From the NCBI GenBank assembly GCA_001303415.1, contig LJTN01000012.1:1-58959 (forward strand): a stretch of 58,959 nt of DNA, read 5' to 3'. The first letter of the stretch is position 1, and every line of letters begins with the position of its first letter. The notes beneath the pieces were generated by a model that saw only the letters and a list, made by a program, of their open reading frames with translations, ran no database searches and was not told the origin of the DNA. A program made the position numbers and the translations under genes. Positions 32,274 to 44,088 of this stretch are shown here, piece after piece. The DNA comes from Myxococcales bacterium SG8_38. GTDB lineage: Bacteria > Myxococcota_A > Polyangia > Polyangiales > Houyiibacteriaceae.

Positions 32274-34280
32274 CTATTGAACGACGACCTCGCAGGTCGC
32301 GCTGCACCCAGAGCCGGGCGCTCCATTGTCGGGGCCGGCATCGCAGTCTTCGCCCAGCTCGGGCTGCCGTATCCCGTCGCCACAGCTCGGACCGAGCGTG
32401 CAATCCGGGTTGCAGCCATTCTGGCCGCCGAGATTGTCGCCGTCGTCGCACTCCTCGAAGCCTTCATCGACGGTACCATCGCCGCAGTGCGGTCCGAGCG
32501 CCGAGCAGTCGGGCATGCAGTGCCCGTACTCACCGGTGTTCTGGTCGGTGCCTTCGTCGCAAAACTCGAAGCGTGTCACGATGCCGTCGCCGCACTCGTA
32601 GTCACAGGTGGAGCGTTCGGTGACGAAGCCGTCGAGCGTGAGTTGGAAGTTCGATGCGCTGGTGTGGCGCTCTGCGTGGAAGATCGCCAGTTCGTAGACC
32701 TTGTCCTCGGTGAGCCGGTCCTTGCACGCGGCCACGATGCCATCCTGCTTGCTGCTGTTGGCGGCGTTGGGATTGGAGAAGCTCATCACGTCGGTCTGGC
32801 TCGGATGAAGCCCGCCCACGTCCAAGCACAAAAAGCCGTCGACGAAGACCCACAGGTCGTCGTCGCCGCTGAAGGTGAGCACTTCGTCGCCTCGATAGAC
32901 GAAGAAGTAGCGCACCTCGGTGGCGAAGCCGAAGTTGCGCGACGCGCCTCCCACGTTCGGGACGAACCGAGTCTCGCCGTACGTGGGCTCACTCGGCCAC
33001 GTGAACGGAGAAAGCGCGGGATCATCCAGCGGAAAGAAGGCATTGCTCGAGAACTGATACCTGTTTTCGCCCACCGATCCGAGCGTGAGCTCGCCCACGA
33101 TTTCCAGGTTCCCGGCCGGATCGAGCGTAGGGCTCGTCCGATACCATTGTGCAAACGACTCGGCGGTGTGCGGCGGGCCTTCATTCGAGCCCGGCACGTA
33201 GAGGTTCTCGCCGGAGAGCACGGGCTTTCCGTCCACGTCGAGGGAGTCTTCGGTGATGTCGAACGCGATGTTGCTGTTCGAGTCGTTTGGGTTGTTGAAG
33301 TCGGGATGATAGGGTCCCGGCAGCGAGCCGCTGTAGCTCCGGAAATCACGGTAGATGACCGGGATGGTGAGCTCGCCCGGGAGCTCCACCGGCGAGAGCA
33401 CGCATTCGAAGCCGTCCTCGACTTGGCAGGTGCTCGAGCAGCCATCCCCGTCCTTGATGTTTCCGTCATCGCAGGCTTCGTTCGTGCCCGGAAGGATCAC
33501 CGCGTCCCCACAAACCGCCTGGCAAACGCCGCCGCTGCAGTTGGGCTCGTTCTTGCAATCCACACCGCAGCCGTCGAAGGGGGTCAGATTCCCGTCGTCG
33601 CACTGTTCGGTTCCTTCGCGTATGCCGTCACCGCACGAGGTTGCCTCGCACGCCTCGCCTGGGGTGTCGCACTTGAAGCCGTCCTCGAGCTGGCATTCTT
33701 CCGAGCACCCGGGTGTGCTTGCGTTGCCATCGTCGCACTGCTCGAAGCCGGCGATGATTCCGTCGCCGCACTGGGTGGCCATGCAGGCCACGCCAGGCAG
33801 AGGGCAGCTCCATCCGTCCTGCCGCTGGCAGCTCGAGCTGCAGCCGTCGTCTCCGCTCACGTTGCCGTCATCACAAGTCTCCGGCGGGTCGATCCGAGAA
33901 TCACCGCAGACGATCGGAACGCACAGCACGCCAACCGTCGGACACCGATAGCCTTCTTCGATCGTCATGCAGTCGGCAGAGCACCCGTCGGCCCCCACCG
34001 CGTTTCCATCATCACAGGCCTCGATAGCTTCACGGGTGCCATCGCCGCAGCCCTCGAAGAAGCCGCCGCCTTGGCCTCCGCTACCACCGGTGCCGCCGAA
34101 GCCCGTACCGCCGCTTCCAGCGATCCCGCCCGAGCCGGCGGTGCCGCCATTGCCCCCGGCGCCACCATCGCCCCCGGTGCCGCCGTTCCGAGCCGAACCG
34201 GACGGATCTCCGCAACCGACTAGCCAAGCCACGGCAAGGCACAACCCTACCGCCCCCCAACGACCCCCCGCGCGCTTCAT
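32274..34280 (-). CDS. DUF4215 Cys-rich repeat lipoprotein with a fibro-slime domain
   Basis: A 668-residue lipoprotein, probably on the cell surface. A lipobox (WLVGCGD) ends the signal; a Gly-rich linker of about 45 residues with GGxGG repeats follows. Then come five DUF4215 (myxobacterial Cys-rich) repeats, each CGDG...CDDGN...DGCSxxC, a fibro-slime-type domain of about 220 residues (starting near VIYRDF and containing FSGDDDLWVFVDGFLCLDVG), and three more Cys-rich repeats. Disulfide-rich repeats on both sides of a putative carbohydrate- or matrix-binding domain fit an adhesion or matrix role. It ends 76 bases before the enoyl-reductase-like gene on the same strand. Confidence 0.9.
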   Translation of the reverse strand: MKRAGGRWGAVGLCLAVAWLVGCGDPSGSARNGGTGGDGGAGGNGGTAGSGGIAGSGGTGFGGTGGSGGQGGGFFEGCGDGTREAIEACDDGNAVGADGCSADCMTIEEGYRCPTVGVLCVPIVCGDSRIDPPETCDDGNVSGDDGCSSSCQRQDGWSCPLPGVACMATQCGDGIIAGFEQCDDGNASTPGCSEECQLEDGFKCDTPGEACEATSCGDGIREGTEQCDDGNLTPFDGCGVDCKNEPNCSGGVCQAVCGDAVILPGTNEACDDGNIKDGDGCSSTCQVEDGFECVLSPVELPGELTIPVIYRDFRSYSGSLPGPYHPDFNNPNDSNSNIAFDITEDSLDVDGKPVLSGENLYVPGSNEGPPHTAESFAQWYRTSPTLDPAGNLEIVGELTLGSVGENRYQFSSNAFFPLDDPALSPFTWPSEPTYGETRFVPNVGGASRNFGFATEVRYFFVYRGDEVLTFSGDDDLWVFVDGFLCLDVGGLHPSQTDVMSFSNPNAANSSKQDGIVAACKDRLTEDKVYELAIFHAERHTSASNFQLTLDGFVTERSTCDYECGDGIVTRFEFCDEGTDQNTGEYGHCMPDCSALGPHCGDGTVDEGFEECDDGDNLGGQNGCNPDCTLGPSCGDGIRQPELGEDCDAGPDNGAPGSGCSATCEVVVQ

Positions 34281-37956: not shown

Positions 37957-38032
37957 TGGCGTCCCCAGCGGGATTTGAACCCGCGTTACTGGCGTGAAAG
38001 GCCAGGGTCCTTGGCCACTAGACGATGGGGAC
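37957..38032 (-). tRNA. tRNA-Glu (anticodon UUC)
   Basis: The minus-strand sequence folds as a standard cloverleaf of 76 bases including an encoded CCA. The acceptor stem is GTCCCCA paired with TGGGGAC plus discriminator G; the anticodon stem is CTGGC/GCCAG with loop CTTTCAC, giving anticodon TTC; the T arm has GCGGGTTCAAATCCCGC. It is the second gene of a two-tRNA unit, 36 bases after tRNA-Lys. Confidence 0.95.
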
Positions 38033-38066: not shown

Positions 38067-38068
38067 GG

Positions 38069-38141
38069 TGGGCCGTCAGGGATTCGAACCCTGGACCGTT
38101 GGATTAAAAGTCCACTGCTCTACCAACTGAGCTAACAGCCC
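38069..38141 (-). tRNA. tRNA-Lys (anticodon UUU)
   Basis: A 73-base cloverleaf on the minus strand. Acceptor stem GGGCTGT pairs with ACGGCCC, discriminator A; D arm GCTCAGTTGGTAGAGC; anticodon loop CTTTTAA gives TTT; T arm CCAGGGTTCGAATCCCTG. The CCA end is not encoded (CCG follows), unlike tRNA-Glu next to it. First gene of the two-tRNA unit. Confidence 0.95.
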
Positions 38142-38188: not shown

Positions 38189-39106
38189 CTAGGTCCCGGT
38201 GAGAGGCTCCGGTGGGCCAAACGGCTTCGCGGCATGGCGGGTGATCATGGACGCGATCGGCGCGAGCAATGATGGCGGAAGATCGTGGCCCATGCCGTCG
38301 ATGAGCTCGAGCCTTGCACCGCGGATGTGGAGCGCGGTGCGAAAACCGCCATCCACGGGAATGAGCGGATCCTCCTTTCCATGGATGACGAGCGTGGGCG
38401 CTTCGACGGCTGACAGGCGCTCGGCCCGGCTGCCATCGGCCACGATCGCAGCCAACTGACGTTTGAAGCCCTCCGGGTAGTGGCTCCGCTCCAAGCTCTC
38501 GTCGATGAGCGGCCTCAGCTCCTCGTCCGTGCGCGGATATTCGGGACTCATCAACAGCCGGAACGACTCCAGCACGTAGGCGATCAGGTCTTCCCTGCCG
38601 TTCGATTTCGGGCGGGCCGAAAAAAGATGTTTCCTGATTTCGGGTCGGGCTCCGGGCAAATCGGGATCCCCGCTCGAAGCCATGATCGAGGTGAGGGTCT
38701 TCACGCGAACGGGATGCGAAGCCGCCATGATCTGCGCGATCATCCCGCCCATCGAAGCGCCGACCACGTGCGCTGCTCCGATGTCGAGCGCATCCAATAC
38801 GCCGACGGCGTCCGCTGCCATGTCTTCGAGGGTGTAAGGCGCGCGAAGTGGCAAGCCGAACATCCGGTGCAATAGAAACCGAAGCGCCCCCGGTGCTTTG
38901 ACCCCGTCGAGCTTCGTCGAAAGACCGACGTCTCGATTGTCGAATCGCACGACGAAGTGCCCTGCCTCGGCGAGCGCATCGCAGAAGGCCGGGGGCCACG
39001 CGACCATCTGCGTACCGAGCCCCATGATCAGGAGCATGGGATCGCCACGCGGATCACCGAACGTGTCGTACTCGATGTCCAAACCGTTCGCTTTGAGTTG
39101 AGCCAT
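38189..39106 (-). CDS. Alpha/beta hydrolase
   Basis: A 305-residue alpha/beta-hydrolase-fold enzyme. The oxyanion strand is PMLLIMGLGTQMVAWPP, then FDNRDVGLS, the nucleophile elbow is HVVGASMGGMIAQ (Ser near residue 121), the acid is in VIHGKEDPLIPVDGG, and the His is in DGMGHDLPP. The RDVGLS motif is common in the group that includes aclacinomycin methylesterase-like and other small-ester hydrolases. It starts 12 bases after the mutH stop, so it may be on the same mRNA, but no functional link with DNA repair is evident. Substrate unknown. Confidence 0.9.
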   Translation of the reverse strand: MAQLKANGLDIEYDTFGDPRGDPMLLIMGLGTQMVAWPPAFCDALAEAGHFVVRFDNRDVGLSTKLDGVKAPGALRFLLHRMFGLPLRAPYTLEDMAADAVGVLDALDIGAAHVVGASMGGMIAQIMAASHPVRVKTLTSIMASSGDPDLPGARPEIRKHLFSARPKSNGREDLIAYVLESFRLLMSPEYPRTDEELRPLIDESLERSHYPEGFKRQLAAIVADGSRAERLSAVEAPTLVIHGKEDPLIPVDGGFRTALHIRGARLELIDGMGHDLPPSLLAPIASMITRHAAKPFGPPEPLTGT

Positions 39107-39118
39107 GAAAGGACCCTG

Positions 39119-39793
39119 TCACTCTTGCTGACGCAGTCTCGTCAACACTGCCGCGGTAAACCCCGGCCGCAAGTAGAAACCTCGCGGCACGGTCCATTGC
39201 ACGGCGCCCTCGTCATCGGGGGCGCGACGGCGGCTCCGCCCGCTTGCCGCCTTGGGCCGCACCTGAAGAACCCGGCCGAGGTGCCCCGTGATGTGCTCCA
39301 CATCGCCCCGTGCGATCATCTCCGATAGGCGCTCCCAGTCGGCGCGCAGCATCCGTTGCTCTTCATGGCTGGGCGTCCACAGGGCAGGGCGCCCCACACG
39401 ACGGTGGGGTAGCGGCTTGTCGGATGCCGCCTCGATCGGGACGAACAACACCTTGGCGAGCTTCCGAAACACCGTGCTTTGCTCCCAATCGGTGTCCGCC
39501 ATGGACGACAGGGAAATGGAGCACACGAAGGTCGACTCCCGCGGCTTACCACTCGGGTCTAGGGGAATGGTCTTGAGCTCGATGCCGAGTGATACGAAAT
39601 CCGGCTCGGCGCGCGACGCGGCCGTGGCGCCAAGCGCCTTTTCGAGGATCTGCCCCGCCACGCCTTTGCCTCGAACCGGCTCGAACGGCACTTCGACACT
39701 GACTCTTGCTCCGAGCTCGCCGAGCGTGAGCCCAGCCAACGCCCAAGCTCGCGCCAAGAGCTCAGCCTCGGTCCTCGGTTCCGAAGCACACAC
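39119..39793 (-). CDS. mutH: MutH-family DNA mismatch repair endonuclease
   Basis: A 224-residue protein closely matching MutH (E. coli 229 residues), the GATC nicking enzyme of methyl-directed mismatch repair. Visible family blocks: LLARAWALAGLTLGELGARV, PVRGKGVAGQILEKALGA, PDFVSLGIELKTIPL, WTPSHEEQRMLRADWE and PRGFYLRPGFTAAVL. The D, E and K of DFVSLGIELK have the D-x6-E-x-K spacing of E. coli D70/E77/K79, so the active site is intact. Start: GTG 39793 with AGAGG upstream, 11 bases after the dnaE stop; the long open frame beyond is a dnaE shadow. The one-domain length argues against a Sau3AI-type restriction enzyme, and no methylase is adjacent. Confidence 0.9.
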   Translation of the reverse strand: MCASEPRTEAELLARAWALAGLTLGELGARVSVEVPFEPVRGKGVAGQILEKALGATAASRAEPDFVSLGIELKTIPLDPSGKPRESTFVCSISLSSMADTDWEQSTVFRKLAKVLFVPIEAASDKPLPHRRVGRPALWTPSHEEQRMLRADWERLSEMIARGDVEHITGHLGRVLQVRPKAASGRSRRRAPDDEGAVQWTVPRGFYLRPGFTAAVLTRLRQQE

Positions 39794-39804
39794 CCAGCGG
39801 CCTC

Positions 39805-42800
39805 TCAGTGCAGCTCGCAGACCTTCGCGCCGAAAAGCCGTTCGAGGCTCGTGAGCAGCGCGTCGCTCGGGTCTACGAAGAGGCCGGTTTCGGCGATGTT
39901 CACCCGCCAGCTTCCCGGATGGTCGAGCTCGAGCGAGACGGGGCAGGGTCCCGGGAACTGCTCGAGCATCGCCCGCAGCGAGTCCAGCTTGGCGCGATCG
40001 ATGGCTTCGACGGTGAGCCGAACCGTGATGGAGGTCGTGCGCTCGTGCAGCGCCTCGCTCAGGAGCGTGGCCTCCTCGAGCAGAATCTTGTGTTGGGTCT
40101 GCGCGCTCTCGGCCTCGCGGTCTTGCTCGTGCTTCACACGGCCGGTGAGCAGAATCGGCTGCCCCGCTTGAAGCGCTTCGCGCAGCCCGGCATTTTCGAG
40201 CGGTTTGGGCCGGACTATCACCTCGACGCGGCCGTAGGCGTCCTCGATGTGAAAGAACGCCATCGTGTGCCCCATCTTGGTGCGTCGCTCCCGATAGCCC
40301 TCCACGGTACCGCCCACGGTGACTTGCCGGTGATTGTCGAGCTGGGCGATGCTCTCGGTGGTCGCATTGCAAAACCGCAAGAGCTCGCTTCGGTAGCGAT
40401 CGAGCGGATGGCCCGACACGTAGAAGCCGAGGGTGGCCTTTTCGCGCGAGAGCTGATCGCGCGAATCCCAAGGGTCGAGCACCGGAAAGCTGCCGCCCGG
40501 GTGTTGATAGGTCTGCGTCTCTTCTTCGTGCCCCATCAATCCAAATAGGCTCTCCTGCCCGCTCGAACGCTCGCTTTGAATGCGCTTTCCCCTCTCGATG
40601 GCTTGCTCGATCGCCACGAATGCCTGCGCGCGATGCACCCCGATGGCGTCGTGCACCGTGTCGAAGGCCCCGCACTGTACCAAAGCCTCGATGACCGACT
40701 TGTTGACGCGGCGAAGGTCGACCCGAGCGCAGAAATCGAACAAGTCGACGAACGGCCGCTCGGTCGTGTGGCCGTCGGGGTGGGGCTCGCCTTTGCGCGC
40801 CTCCAAGATCGCCTCGACGGCGGCGGTGCCCACGCCTTTGATCGCCCCGAGCCCAAATCGAACCTTCGGCCCCATCGGATCGTGCACCTGCCCGTTGTAG
40901 CAAACCGGTTTGTGCCGGAGGCGGGCCACGTCCTGCGCGTCGTCCGGATTGTAGACGACGCTGAAGTCGATCTGGGACTCGTTGACGTCCGGCGGCAACA
41001 CGGTGATGCCCATCGACCGCGCTTCGGCGACCGTGCGAACGACTTTGTCGATCTTCTCCTTGTCCGCGGTGAGCGTCGCGCAGGTGAACTCGACCGGGTA
41101 GTGGGTCTTCAGATAGGCCGTCTGGTAGGTGATCAGCGCATACGCCGCCGAATGGCTCTTGTTGAACCCGTAGCCCGCGAAATAGGCCATCAAGTCGAAT
41201 ACCTCTTCGGCTTTTTCGCGCGTGTGTCCTCGCGCGACTGCGCCTTCGATGAAGACGGCCTTTTGCTTCTCCATCTCCGAGGCCTTCTTCTTGCCCATCG
41301 CGCGCCGCAGAAGATCTGCGCCACCGAGCGAGTAGCCGGCCATCTCCTGCGCGATCTGCATGACCTGCTCCTGGTAGACGATCACGCCGCGCGTTTCTTG
41401 CAGGATGCTCTCGAGCGATGCATGCGGATACTCCACTCGTTGCCGTCCGTGCTTGCGGTGCACGAAGTCTTTGTCCATCTGCGCGCCCATCGGCCCCGGC
41501 CGGTAGAGCGCCACGGCGGCCACGATGTCGTCGAAGCGGTCGGGCCGGAGCTGCTTGAACAAGCTCTGCATGCCGCTCGATTCGAGCTGAAACACGTTCG
41601 TCGTCTCGCCCGACTGCAGCAAAGCATACGTGGCGGGGTCGTCCGTGGGAATCGCATCGATTCGAAGCGGGTTATCGAGGCGATCCGGACGGCGGTCGAT
41701 GAGTTTCGTGGCGATGTCGATCACCGTCAACGTGCGGAGCCCGAGGAAGTCGAACTTCACCAGGCCTGCCGCTTCGACGTCGTCTTTGTGGTACTGCGTG
41801 ACGTACACGTCTTTTTCGGGACAAAAGACCGGCACGTGATCCCAGATCGGCCCCTCGCTGATCACCACCCCCGCCGCATGCATGCCCGCATGGCGCGTGA
41901 GGTTCTCGAGCGCTTGCGCCGTGTCGAGCAGCTCTCGTGCCTTGGGGTCTTGCTCGTATGCGGTCTTGAGGCGCGGCTCCTGCTTCAGCGCGTCGCTGAT
42001 CGGCACGCTCTTGCCTTGCACCGGCTCGGGGATCATCGTCGCGATGAGACCGGCCTCGCCGGGCGTCATGCCCATGACGCGCCCGACGTCGCGCACCACG
42101 CTTCGGCTCTTGAGCTGATGAAAGGTTGCGATTTGTCCGACGCTCTGATGGCCGTACTTCTCGCGTACGTATTGAATGACGCGGTCGCGCTGATCCATGC
42201 AGAAGTCGATGTCGAAGTCCGGCATGGAAACGCGCTCCGGGTTGAGGAAGCGTTCGAACAGAAGCCCGTGGACGATTGGGTTGAGGTCGGTGATGCGCAA
42301 CGCCCACGCGACGAGCGAGCCCGCCCCCGATCCGCGCCCGGGACCTACCGGCACCCCATTGTCCTTCGCCCAGTTGATGAAGTCCTGCACGATCAGGAAG
42401 TATCCGGCGAAGCCCATCTTCAAGATCACGTCGAGCTCGAGCTCGAGCCGGCTGTGGTAGCGCTTCTCGTCGAAGGTCTCGCCGCGGCCGCGCATCTCGA
42501 CCATGCGGCGACCAAGCCCCGCCACCGCCAGAGCCCGCAAGTAGTCTTCCTCGCTCGCGCCGCCTGGAACCGCGAACCGGGGCAGATTCGGTTCGGCGAG
42601 CGGCGTCGCCCGGCCGGCGCACATTTCAGCCACCAATAGCGTGTTCTTCGCGGCTTCCGGGACGTGCGCGAACAAGCTCGCCATCTGCTCGGGCGTCTTG
42701 AGGTAGAGCTCCGAGGAGTGGTGGTGCATGGCCTCCATCTCGCGCACGCTTCGTCCCGCGCCGATGCACTGCAATACGAGCTGGGCGTGCGCGGAGCGGC

Positions 42801-43434
42801 GCTCCAGGTAGTGGCAGTCGTTGGTGCCGACCAGGGGCAGCTCGAGCTCCTCGGCGAGCTTGCCGAGCACCTGGTTGAGAGGACGGTTTTCCGGAAAGCC
42901 GTGGTCCTGGAGCTCGACGAAGAAGTGACCAGGCTCGAACGAGTCGCGCAACTTGGCGAGGGCTTCCCGTCCGACCGCCGGCCCCTTGTTGAGGATCTCC
43001 TGCGCGACGTACCCACCCATGCACGCGCTCAACCCGACCACGCCCTTGCTGTGCTTTTGGAGAACCTCGAAGTCGATGCGCGGCTGATCGTAGGCCGCCA
43101 TGCCGTCCACCCAGCCCGAGCTCACCAGATGGACCAGGTTGTGGTAGCCCTCTTGCGAGCTGGCGAGCAACAGCAGATGGCTGAGCTCGCGGTTTTGTGG
43201 ATCCCGCCGGTCGCCGGCCGTGAAGTTCACCTCGCAGCCGAGGATCGGCTTCACCCCGGTCCCCTTGCAAGCGTGCACGAGCTGAACCGCGCCGAACATG
43301 TTGCCGTTGTCGGTGAGCGCGACGGCCGGCATGCCCATCTCGTCGGCGTGCGCGACGAGCTCGGGGATACGGATGGCGCCGTCCAGCATCGAGAACTCGC
43401 TGTGGACGTGAAGGTGAACGAACTCGGCCGCCAT
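39805..43434 (-). CDS. dnaE: DNA polymerase III alpha subunit
   Basis: The replicative polymerase, 1209 residues, DnaE1 type. Order: PHP domain (VHLHVHSEFSMLDGA at the N-terminus), polymerase core with SMPDFDIDFCMDQR near residue 405 (two catalytic Asp) and KFDFLGLRTL (third Asp), then fingers and HhH region, and a C-terminal OB fold (VTVGGTVEGYRERRTKMGHT). The PHP motif has both His of HLHVHS, as in PHP domains with exonuclease potential, but the usual TDHG is TDNG (LTDNGNMFGA), so one metal ligand may be lost. mutH follows directly; a TetR gene lies 51 bases upstream. Confidence 0.98.
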   Translation of the reverse strand: MAAEFVHLHVHSEFSMLDGAIRIPELVAHADEMGMPAVALTDNGNMFGAVQLVHACKGTGVKPILGCEVNFTAGDRRDPQNRELSHLLLLASSQEGYHNLVHLVSSGWVDGMAAYDQPRIDFEVLQKHSKGVVGLSACMGGYVAQEILNKGPAVGREALAKLRDSFEPGHFFVELQDHGFPENRPLNQVLGKLAEELELPLVGTNDCHYLERRSAHAQLVLQCIGAGRSVREMEAMHHHSSELYLKTPEQMASLFAHVPEAAKNTLLVAEMCAGRATPLAEPNLPRFAVPGGASEEDYLRALAVAGLGRRMVEMRGRGETFDEKRYHSRLELELDVILKMGFAGYFLIVQDFINWAKDNGVPVGPGRGSGAGSLVAWALRITDLNPIVHGLLFERFLNPERVSMPDFDIDFCMDQRDRVIQYVREKYGHQSVGQIATFHQLKSRSVVRDVGRVMGMTPGEAGLIATMIPEPVQGKSVPISDALKQEPRLKTAYEQDPKARELLDTAQALENLTRHAGMHAAGVVISEGPIWDHVPVFCPEKDVYVTQYHKDDVEAAGLVKFDFLGLRTLTVIDIATKLIDRRPDRLDNPLRIDAIPTDDPATYALLQSGETTNVFQLESSGMQSLFKQLRPDRFDDIVAAVALYRPGPMGAQMDKDFVHRKHGRQRVEYPHASLESILQETRGVIVYQEQVMQIAQEMAGYSLGGADLLRRAMGKKKASEMEKQKAVFIEGAVARGHTREKAEEVFDLMAYFAGYGFNKSHSAAYALITYQTAYLKTHYPVEFTCATLTADKEKIDKVVRTVAEARSMGITVLPPDVNESQIDFSVVYNPDDAQDVARLRHKPVCYNGQVHDPMGPKVRFGLGAIKGVGTAAVEAILEARKGEPHPDGHTTERPFVDLFDFCARVDLRRVNKSVIEALVQCGAFDTVHDAIGVHRAQAFVAIEQAIERGKRIQSERSSGQESLFGLMGHEEETQTYQHPGGSFPVLDPWDSRDQLSREKATLGFYVSGHPLDRYRSELLRFCNATTESIAQLDNHRQVTVGGTVEGYRERRTKMGHTMAFFHIEDAYGRVEVIVRPKPLENAGLREALQAGQPILLTGRVKHEQDREAESAQTQHKILLEEATLLSEALHERTTSITVRLTVEAIDRAKLDSLRAMLEQFPGPCPVSLELDHPGSWRVNIAETGLFVDPSDALLTSLERLFGAKVCELH

Positions 43435-43485: not shown

Positions 43486-44088
43486 TCAGAGCAACGAGTC
43501 GAGCAGGGCGCTCAAATGCGCGCGTCGCCGCTCGCGATCCGCCTCGGTAAAACGGTCCTCTCCAAAGAGCTGTTTGATGATGGGATCGCGAAAAAAGTAA
43601 ACCACCAGCGCTCCGAGTATCGTCACGTATACATCGCGAGGATCGCCCCCGGCCTTGCTGGTCGCCGGCGGTTTTGCTCCGAGGCCGGTCAGCGCGCGGG
43701 CCATTTCGTCGTAAAAAGCGGTCATCGACCGCTCGACCCGATCCGATGCCGAGGCCATTTCCCAGAGCATGATGCGCACTTGATTGGGGTGGTCCCAGAA
43801 TAGATCGAAGCTTCTCAGGACCGCTTCGCGCGCGGTGAGCCCTGGCTCCTCGCAGCCGAGCTGCTTGAAGAGCTCGAGATGGCGGTCGAATAGGCGACCT
43901 ACCACCTGCTCGTACAGTCGATCCTTCGAGTCGAAGTAGTAGTGGAGCAAACCATGGGTGACGCCCGCGCGCTTGGCGATCGCGACCATCCGGGTGCCAT
44001 GAAACCCGTGCTCGGCAAACTCCTGCTCCGCGGCGTCGAGGATCGTGACCCGCATTTGCTCCGGATCGGCGTCCTTGGGTCTTGCCAC
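43486..44088 (-). CDS. TetR/AcrR family transcriptional regulator
   Basis: A 200-residue one-component regulator. The N-terminal helix-turn-helix spans about residues 12-57: VTILDAAEQEFAEHGFHGTR, then MVAIAKRAGVTHGLLHYYFD. The C-terminal ligand domain is helical and not diagnostic. The gene starts two bases after the stop of the small membrane protein, so both share the promoter at 44773-44801. That promoter overlaps inverted TTATTnACA half-sites, which makes autoregulation likely. The inducer is unknown. Confidence 0.92.
   Translation of the reverse strand: MARPKDADPEQMRVTILDAAEQEFAEHGFHGTRMVAIAKRAGVTHGLLHYYFDSKDRLYEQVVGRLFDRHLELFKQLGCEEPGLTAREAVLRSFDLFWDHPNQVRIMLWEMASASDRVERSMTAFYDEMARALTGLGAKPPATSKAGGDPRDVYVTILGALVVYFFRDPIIKQLFGEDRFTEADRERRRAHLSALLDSLL

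Follow-up and report, generated by a model that had tools for sequence, protein, structure and literature searches.

A mutH gene directly behind dnaE in a Myxococcota draft genome, and the occurrence of MutH, Dam and nuclease-type MutL in the phylum

The window, as we call the whole 58,959-nucleotide stretch of DNA that was analysed, carries what its sequence marks as a genuine mutH and not the gene of a Sau3AI enzyme; the gene looks normal and in working order, and appears to belong to Dam-directed repair, in a phylum where this was not expected. Very probably, its genome encodes a complete set for mismatch repair directed by Dam, as in E. coli, with MutH as the nicking enzyme, in which the methylation and the MutL-activated nicking are predicted from the set of genes. 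More interesting than the window gene itself is the situation in Myxococcota as a whole, where MutH occurs beside a nuclease-type MutL and the latter has apparently been lost repeatedly. With slightly more belief than doubt, we read the phylum as another home of Dam-directed repair, the second one and a diverse one, in which MutH and a nuclease MutL would coexist in about half of the carriers, the nuclease would have been lost repeatedly after MutH and Dam, in some cases being half-decayed, and the polymerase gene would have taken over the control of mutH in the window lineage.

In its draft genome (105 contigs, 3.62 Mb, 92% complete), the window corresponds to contig C45. The nearest named relatives are MAGs that bear the title Myxococcales or Deltaproteobacteria and are assigned to Myxococcota. 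The features on which the argument draws are given below, the last two being located on other contigs of the same genome.

38189-39106, minus strand: alpha/beta hydrolase gene (PF00561, 75.3 bits), its start 12 bp beyond the stop codon of mutH
39119-39793, minus strand: mutH, GTG start, 224 aa, over both NCBIfam MutH cut-offs
39805-43434, minus strand: dnaE (DNA polymerase III alpha subunit), ATG start, 1209 aa (NF004226, 1382.5 bits; cut-off 1002)
43486-44088, minus strand: TetR-family regulator gene (PF00440, 63.5 bits), in the same orientation as dnaE and 51 bp upstream of it
L032:1426-2301, minus strand: Dam-family methylase gene (TIGR00571, 296.9 bits; cut-off 114.85), contig C22
L002:370-2034: mutL (458 bits), contig C101

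The dnaE gene lies directly upstream of mutH, and the coordinates bear out the 11 bases (39794-39804) that a sequence-only reading of this DNA had counted between the two. The hydrolase gene, which has no known link to repair, is possibly the third gene of a dnaE-mutH operon. Downstream of these three genes, tRNA-Glu(ttc) and tRNA-Lys(ttt) adjoin (37957-38032 and 38067-38141, minus strand), and further along the window (32274-34280, minus strand) a 668-aa protein with five DUF4215 stretches is encoded.

The product of mutH, which we take to be the hemimethylated-GATC nicking endonuclease of mismatch repair, an activity predicted from its family, scored 103.7 bits against Pfam PF02976 (cut-off 23), 268.7 bits against NCBIfam NF003458 (cut-off 243) and 232.1 bits against NCBIfam TIGR02248 (cut-off 229.9), and possesses the D-x6-E-x-K motif (EPDFVSLGIELK). 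In a search of solved structures (PDB), the protein matched MutH 1azo (E = 1.4e-60) and MutH 2aoq (E = 3.2e-55), presumably the E. coli and H. influenzae MutH, the chains of which align with almost the full length of the window protein. Profile cut-offs, motif and PDB matches thus confirm what had been read from the letters, namely a 224-residue MutH-family protein with D-x6-E-x-K behind dnaE. Alignment with 1azo and within the phylum showed that E56, D70, E77, K79 and K116 (E. coli numbering), which we assume to be the catalytic residues, are kept in the window MutH; so are, in the phylum alignment, R184, K186 and Y212, by which known MutH presumably recognises GATC and its methylation. All eight are present in 119 of 127 aligned Myxococcota rows (two divergent members, G126 and G202, stand outside this alignment), and the eight exceptions comprise four cut rows, one K116R, two K186R and one D70N. 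The window mutH is under purifying selection, with dN/dS of 0.08-0.19 in 21 pairs from seven genus members (dS 0.60-1.93, near saturation).

A search of the window genome for dam, mutS, mutL and the endonuclease motif of MutL, which had been suggested as a check, found all three genes, on contigs of the draft other than that of mutH, and a MutL from which the motifs are absent. The genome has one Dam-family methylase, whose closest solved relatives are the DpnII methylase 2dpm and then the DNA adenine methylase 4rtj and Dam chains. Its score with NF008152, which we take to be the enterobacterial Dam model, was 200 bits and far below the cut-off of 441, so that the GATC specificity ascribed to it rests on the similarity to DpnII and Dam enzymes. 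A second adenine methylase of the genome, of the D12 class (L033:1072-2193, minus strand, 373 aa), matches no NCBIfam model. MutS1 scored 864.7 bits (contig C33). In MutL, the stretch aligned with DQHA(X)2E reads LVLDRARADALRRYDAL and does not contain that motif, and CPHGRP is likewise missing; mutations in the MutL nuclease motifs abolished nicking by Aquifex MutL (PMC2744016). Across the window genus, MutH was found in seven of eight genomes, and both Dam and a motif-less MutL in all eight; the member without MutH, G373, is a smaller assembly (3.1 Mb).

Strand-specific mismatch repair, the role proposed for MutH in the sequence-only reading, is the most likely one in a genome that has Dam and MutS1 and whose MutL is devoid of nuclease motifs. 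Dam would methylate GATC on both strands, and the new strand would be briefly unmethylated after replication. MutS1 would detect a mismatch and recruit MutL, itself without the nuclease motif, and MutL would activate MutH to nick the unmethylated strand at GATC; the nicked strand would then be removed and resynthesised.

Judging from the spacing, which suggests an operon, mutH and the replicative polymerase gene probably share one message from which both are translated. A survey of dnaE-mutH adjacency in Myxococcota showed that the arrangement is not limited to one genome, being present in 13 of the 128 genomes with MutH (window genome included) from three families, f1, f3 and f7. The carriers are all seven MutH-bearing members of the genus, representatives of three further genera of the family (G027, G080 and G361), G022 (f3), and G258 and G272 (f7). 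The nearest possible mutH start codons range in position from 4 bases ahead of the dnaE end to 66 bases beyond it, with an overlap in six of the 13 tandems; G017 and G272 may have their true start at a later codon. These 13 are a lower bound, because contig ends cut some loci. In 115 genomes with MutH no tandem was seen (some loci end at a contig end); it is therefore an arrangement of local extent, on which the repair system as such does not depend. Co-production of nicking enzyme and polymerase, as the sequence-only reading had it, stands as a lead, given the recurrence of the tandem in three families, and falls as a general basis. In G371, dnaE lies 4.7 kb upstream of mutH, and in other groups the recurrent neighbours of mutH are different genes, the neighbourhood varying across the phylum. 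Some further peculiarities were seen at these loci: dnaE of G361 (L158:1505-5254, plus strand) is one frame with a single internal stop, and in G182 (L012) the last part of dnaE is in another frame, each being either an assembly error or a real break. G080 (L125) has the tandem and Dam, and no MutL was found in its 99% complete assembly (only a match with E = 3.7e-4).

The tightness of this tandem in 13 genomes, together with family f25, where 11 of 13 genomes with MutH had no Dam-family match, could be taken to mean that MutH acts in repair with the strand chosen through coupling to the polymerase or clamp instead of GATC methylation, the tandem being a reflection of that coupling. We consider this improbable, as a Dam-family gene is present in the window genome, the three residues that presumably read GATC and its methylation are kept in the window MutH, and 115 of the 128 genomes with MutH showed no tandem.

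As to the history of the gene, the window MutH is 72-74% identical to that of two genus members and 39-56% to that of 30 other Myxococcota; gammaproteobacterial MutH among the best 80 matches are 45-52% identical to it. The phylogeny, which had also been called for, placed the window MutH with its genus (starred, 100) and with part of its family in unrooted trees: from nine other genomes of the family, four join it in a starred clade (96), four more are in an unstarred one (89, plus one of another family) and G125 falls elsewhere. The first tree, built from 112 of the 127 Myxococcota rows, those that were not partial, and from 44 hand-picked of 80 loci, with the unplaced 'bacterium' L338 counted as Myxococcota, held 28 of 29 gammaproteobacteria together (support 89, not starred). 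After 18 more divergent gammaproteobacteria had been added (two of 20 fetched were too partial), the gammaproteobacteria of the second tree need five changes, and starred branches force only one; with only one change forced and the trees unrooted, neither a single origin of MutH nor a direction is therefore established. The MutH of a gammaproteobacterial MAG (L335, title Baikal-deep) was located among Myxococcota in the first tree and with the divergent gammaproteobacteria in the second. A recent transfer from gammaproteobacteria is not supported, the window MutH falling among those of its genus and of some other family members. This grouping, the purifying selection and the standard partners in the genome also speak against the earlier suggestion of an acquired MutH used in a new way.

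Very little weight attaches to the explanation that MutH is a passive passenger, residing unused on acquired DNA behind dnaE, while repair here relies on natural nicks. It would suit the patchy occurrence of MutH (128 of 377 Myxococcota), the variable gene neighbourhood through the phylum and the example of family f13, which apparently manages without MutH, Dam and the MutL motif, but is at odds with the low dN/dS, with the functional residues kept in all but eight rows, half of these being cut, and with a window-genome MutL devoid of the nuclease motif that could replace MutH.

GATC is not depleted in the window, where 461 sites were counted against 402.7 +/- 15.4 in dinucleotide shuffles (observed/expected 0.94 by a second-order Markov estimate; largest gap 929 bp), and the impression by eye that such sites are frequent was correct. 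Their density per kb is about equal in groups with and without Dam or MutH, and is for this reason permissive and not diagnostic. That the gene encodes a Sau3AI-type GATC restriction enzyme or its remnant, paired with a Dam-like methylase, is hardly credible: Sau3AI is related to the window MutH (NF040973, 57.3 bits; 4pxg, E = 0.00016) and the methylase of the genome is closest to that of DpnII, part of a restriction system, but the cut-off of the Sau3AI model is 300 bits and far from reached, both MutH equivalog cut-offs are passed, GATC is not avoided, and the argument from one-domain size and neighbours holds, with a single MutH domain in 224 aa in place of the two-domain Sau3AI size, dnaE and the hydrolase gene on either side, and the methylase on another contig.

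The components of Dam-directed repair were also counted through the phylum. Of 377 Myxococcota genomes sampled, 128 have MutH (PF02976, each match above the cut-off), versus 61 of 274 genomes in a gammaproteobacterial sample (the class of Aeromonas popoffii, centre included), which contradicts the statement in the sequence-only reading that MutH is almost confined to gammaproteobacteria. The Dam family (TIGR00571) was detected in 226 of the 377 Myxococcota, 214 of them over the cut-off. By hand comparison of the genome lists, 110 of the 128 genomes with MutH had a Dam match (three weakly: G331, G075 and G261), versus 116 of the 249 without. In the literature cited here, the great majority of bacteria are described as being without Dam and MutH, methyl-directed repair as occurring in only a few gammaproteobacteria and the MutL of MutH carriers as being without the nuclease part (PMC8744996); MutH is described as confined to a group of gammaproteobacteria (PMC4390886), and the nuclease motif as present in all MutL except those of some gammaproteobacteria (PMC3848065). 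Among open-access papers, a search of titles and the beginnings of abstracts yielded no report of a Myxococcota MutH; database annotation may already name these genes mutH.

In f25 (e.g. L116, L117, L132, L120 and L007), with its 11 genomes without a Dam match mentioned above, MutH occurs with a nuclease-type MutL. The fetched DNA near mutH was scanned in this family for motifs resembling those of methylases; four frames came up, none of them convincing. Families f35 and f46 possess a divergent MutH (L194:5165-6373, minus strand, and relatives) in frames of 230 to 989 aa with weak matches of 28-47 bits; ten MutL were readable in these genomes, all without the nuclease motif.

MutL was read on fetched DNA in 124 of the 128 genomes with MutH (not in G080, G151, G175 and G335), and was cut before the motif in G077 and G164. 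In the remaining 122, DQHAxxE is kept in 59 and lost in 63, part-decayed motifs such as DQHAAHQ (G166) and DQQAAHE (G219) being counted as lost; four of the 59 keepers have no intact CPHGRP-type motif (one, G081, at a contig end). A Dam match was found in 59 of the 63 genomes with the motif lost and in 47 of the 59 with the motif kept. Sorangium cellulosum So0157-2 (NC_021658.1) has MutH, Dam (281.2 bits) and a MutL with both nuclease motifs. The alternative 'MutH or nuclease MutL' therefore fails in Myxococcota. In the gammaproteobacterial control, MutL_C was found in 21 of 22 genomes with MutH, one being cut before the motif, and either motif in none of the other 20, whereas the same search in five named MutH-bearing Myxococcota found both motifs in four and neither in one; the gammaproteobacterial rule thus does not hold in Myxococcota.

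Among 43 genomes without MutH in which MutL was read (from a total of 249, with a sample bias in that 11 were picked for a weak MutL_C score), the motif was kept in 32, absent in nine and cut or split in two. The nine are six genomes of f13, G373 of the window genus, and two members of families with MutH, G245 (77% complete) and G260 (73% complete). As a check independent of which loci were selected, a hand count over the 377 genomes gave a weak MutL_C (E above 1e-26) in 61 of 121 genomes with MutH versus 18 of 227 without, among those with a match, and 11 of these 18 belong to f13; MutL_C had no match in seven genomes with MutH and 22 without. The MutL_C score is a rough stand-in for the motif, G054 and G092 being weak yet keeping DQHAxxE, and G166, G172 and G219 scoring well with the motif lost. 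Family f13 stands apart: the motif is absent in all six MutL read (G094, G099, G130, G216, G221 and G362; L198-L201, L243 and L103), and the 11 genomes searched all have MutS1, with no MutH and no Dam match in these 11. As far as can be told from its genes, f13 is without a known mismatch-repair nicking enzyme. Since its MutL is motif-less without MutH or Dam, loss of the motif alone does not prove use of MutH.

The N-terminal domain of MutL was used for a quick, midpoint-rooted tree; 155 of 167 rows had sufficient length, and 151 remained once four unreadable ones were removed. On this tree, the rows without the motif fall into 20 separate clades. MutH is present in 18 of these, two of which contain one incomplete assembly without it (G373 and G245); the other two are f13 (six rows) and the single genome G260, from a genus in which G256 carries MutH. 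It is likely that the MutL nuclease motif was lost repeatedly after MutH. Independent-pair tests on this tree were not significant (median p 0.375 with 12 starred pairs and 0.625 with 11 pairs), the second trait not differing in most pairs, and the number of loss clades is descriptive because of this result. That number also depends on a selected set of genomes, MutL having been read in 124 of the 128 with MutH and in only 43 of the 249 without.

Use of Dam and MutH for repair by a third of Myxococcota, if true, would mean that methyl-directed repair is more than a curiosity of enterobacteria. The phylum would then present a natural series, from nuclease MutL alone through both and MutH alone to neither, in which gain, doubling and loss of strand choice in mismatch repair could be studied. 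Mismatch repair with two nucleases would be a state absent from the earlier descriptions cited (PMC4390886, PMC3848065 and PMC8744996).

With the MutS-MutL-MutH-Dam system of E. coli and H. influenzae, the window genome shares the MutH family, the size of the protein and its catalytic and recognition residues, as well as the same set of partners and a MutL without nuclease motifs; the differences are a host from another phylum, the position of mutH behind dnaE and a Dam-family enzyme scoring higher on the DpnII methylase than on other Dam structures. Sau3AI and DpnII GATC restriction-modification is similar in its related nuclease family and in the DpnII-like methylase of the window genome, but differs in that the window has no restriction-sized enzyme, no linked methylase and no avoidance of GATC. 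The MutH-less repair of Bacillus, Aquifex and Neisseria, which relies on the endonuclease of MutL, has the core of MutS1 and MutL in common with the window genome, which differs in having MutH and Dam and neither of the two MutL nuclease motifs; such a MutL is kept beside MutH in 59 of the 122 readable MutH-bearing Myxococcota.
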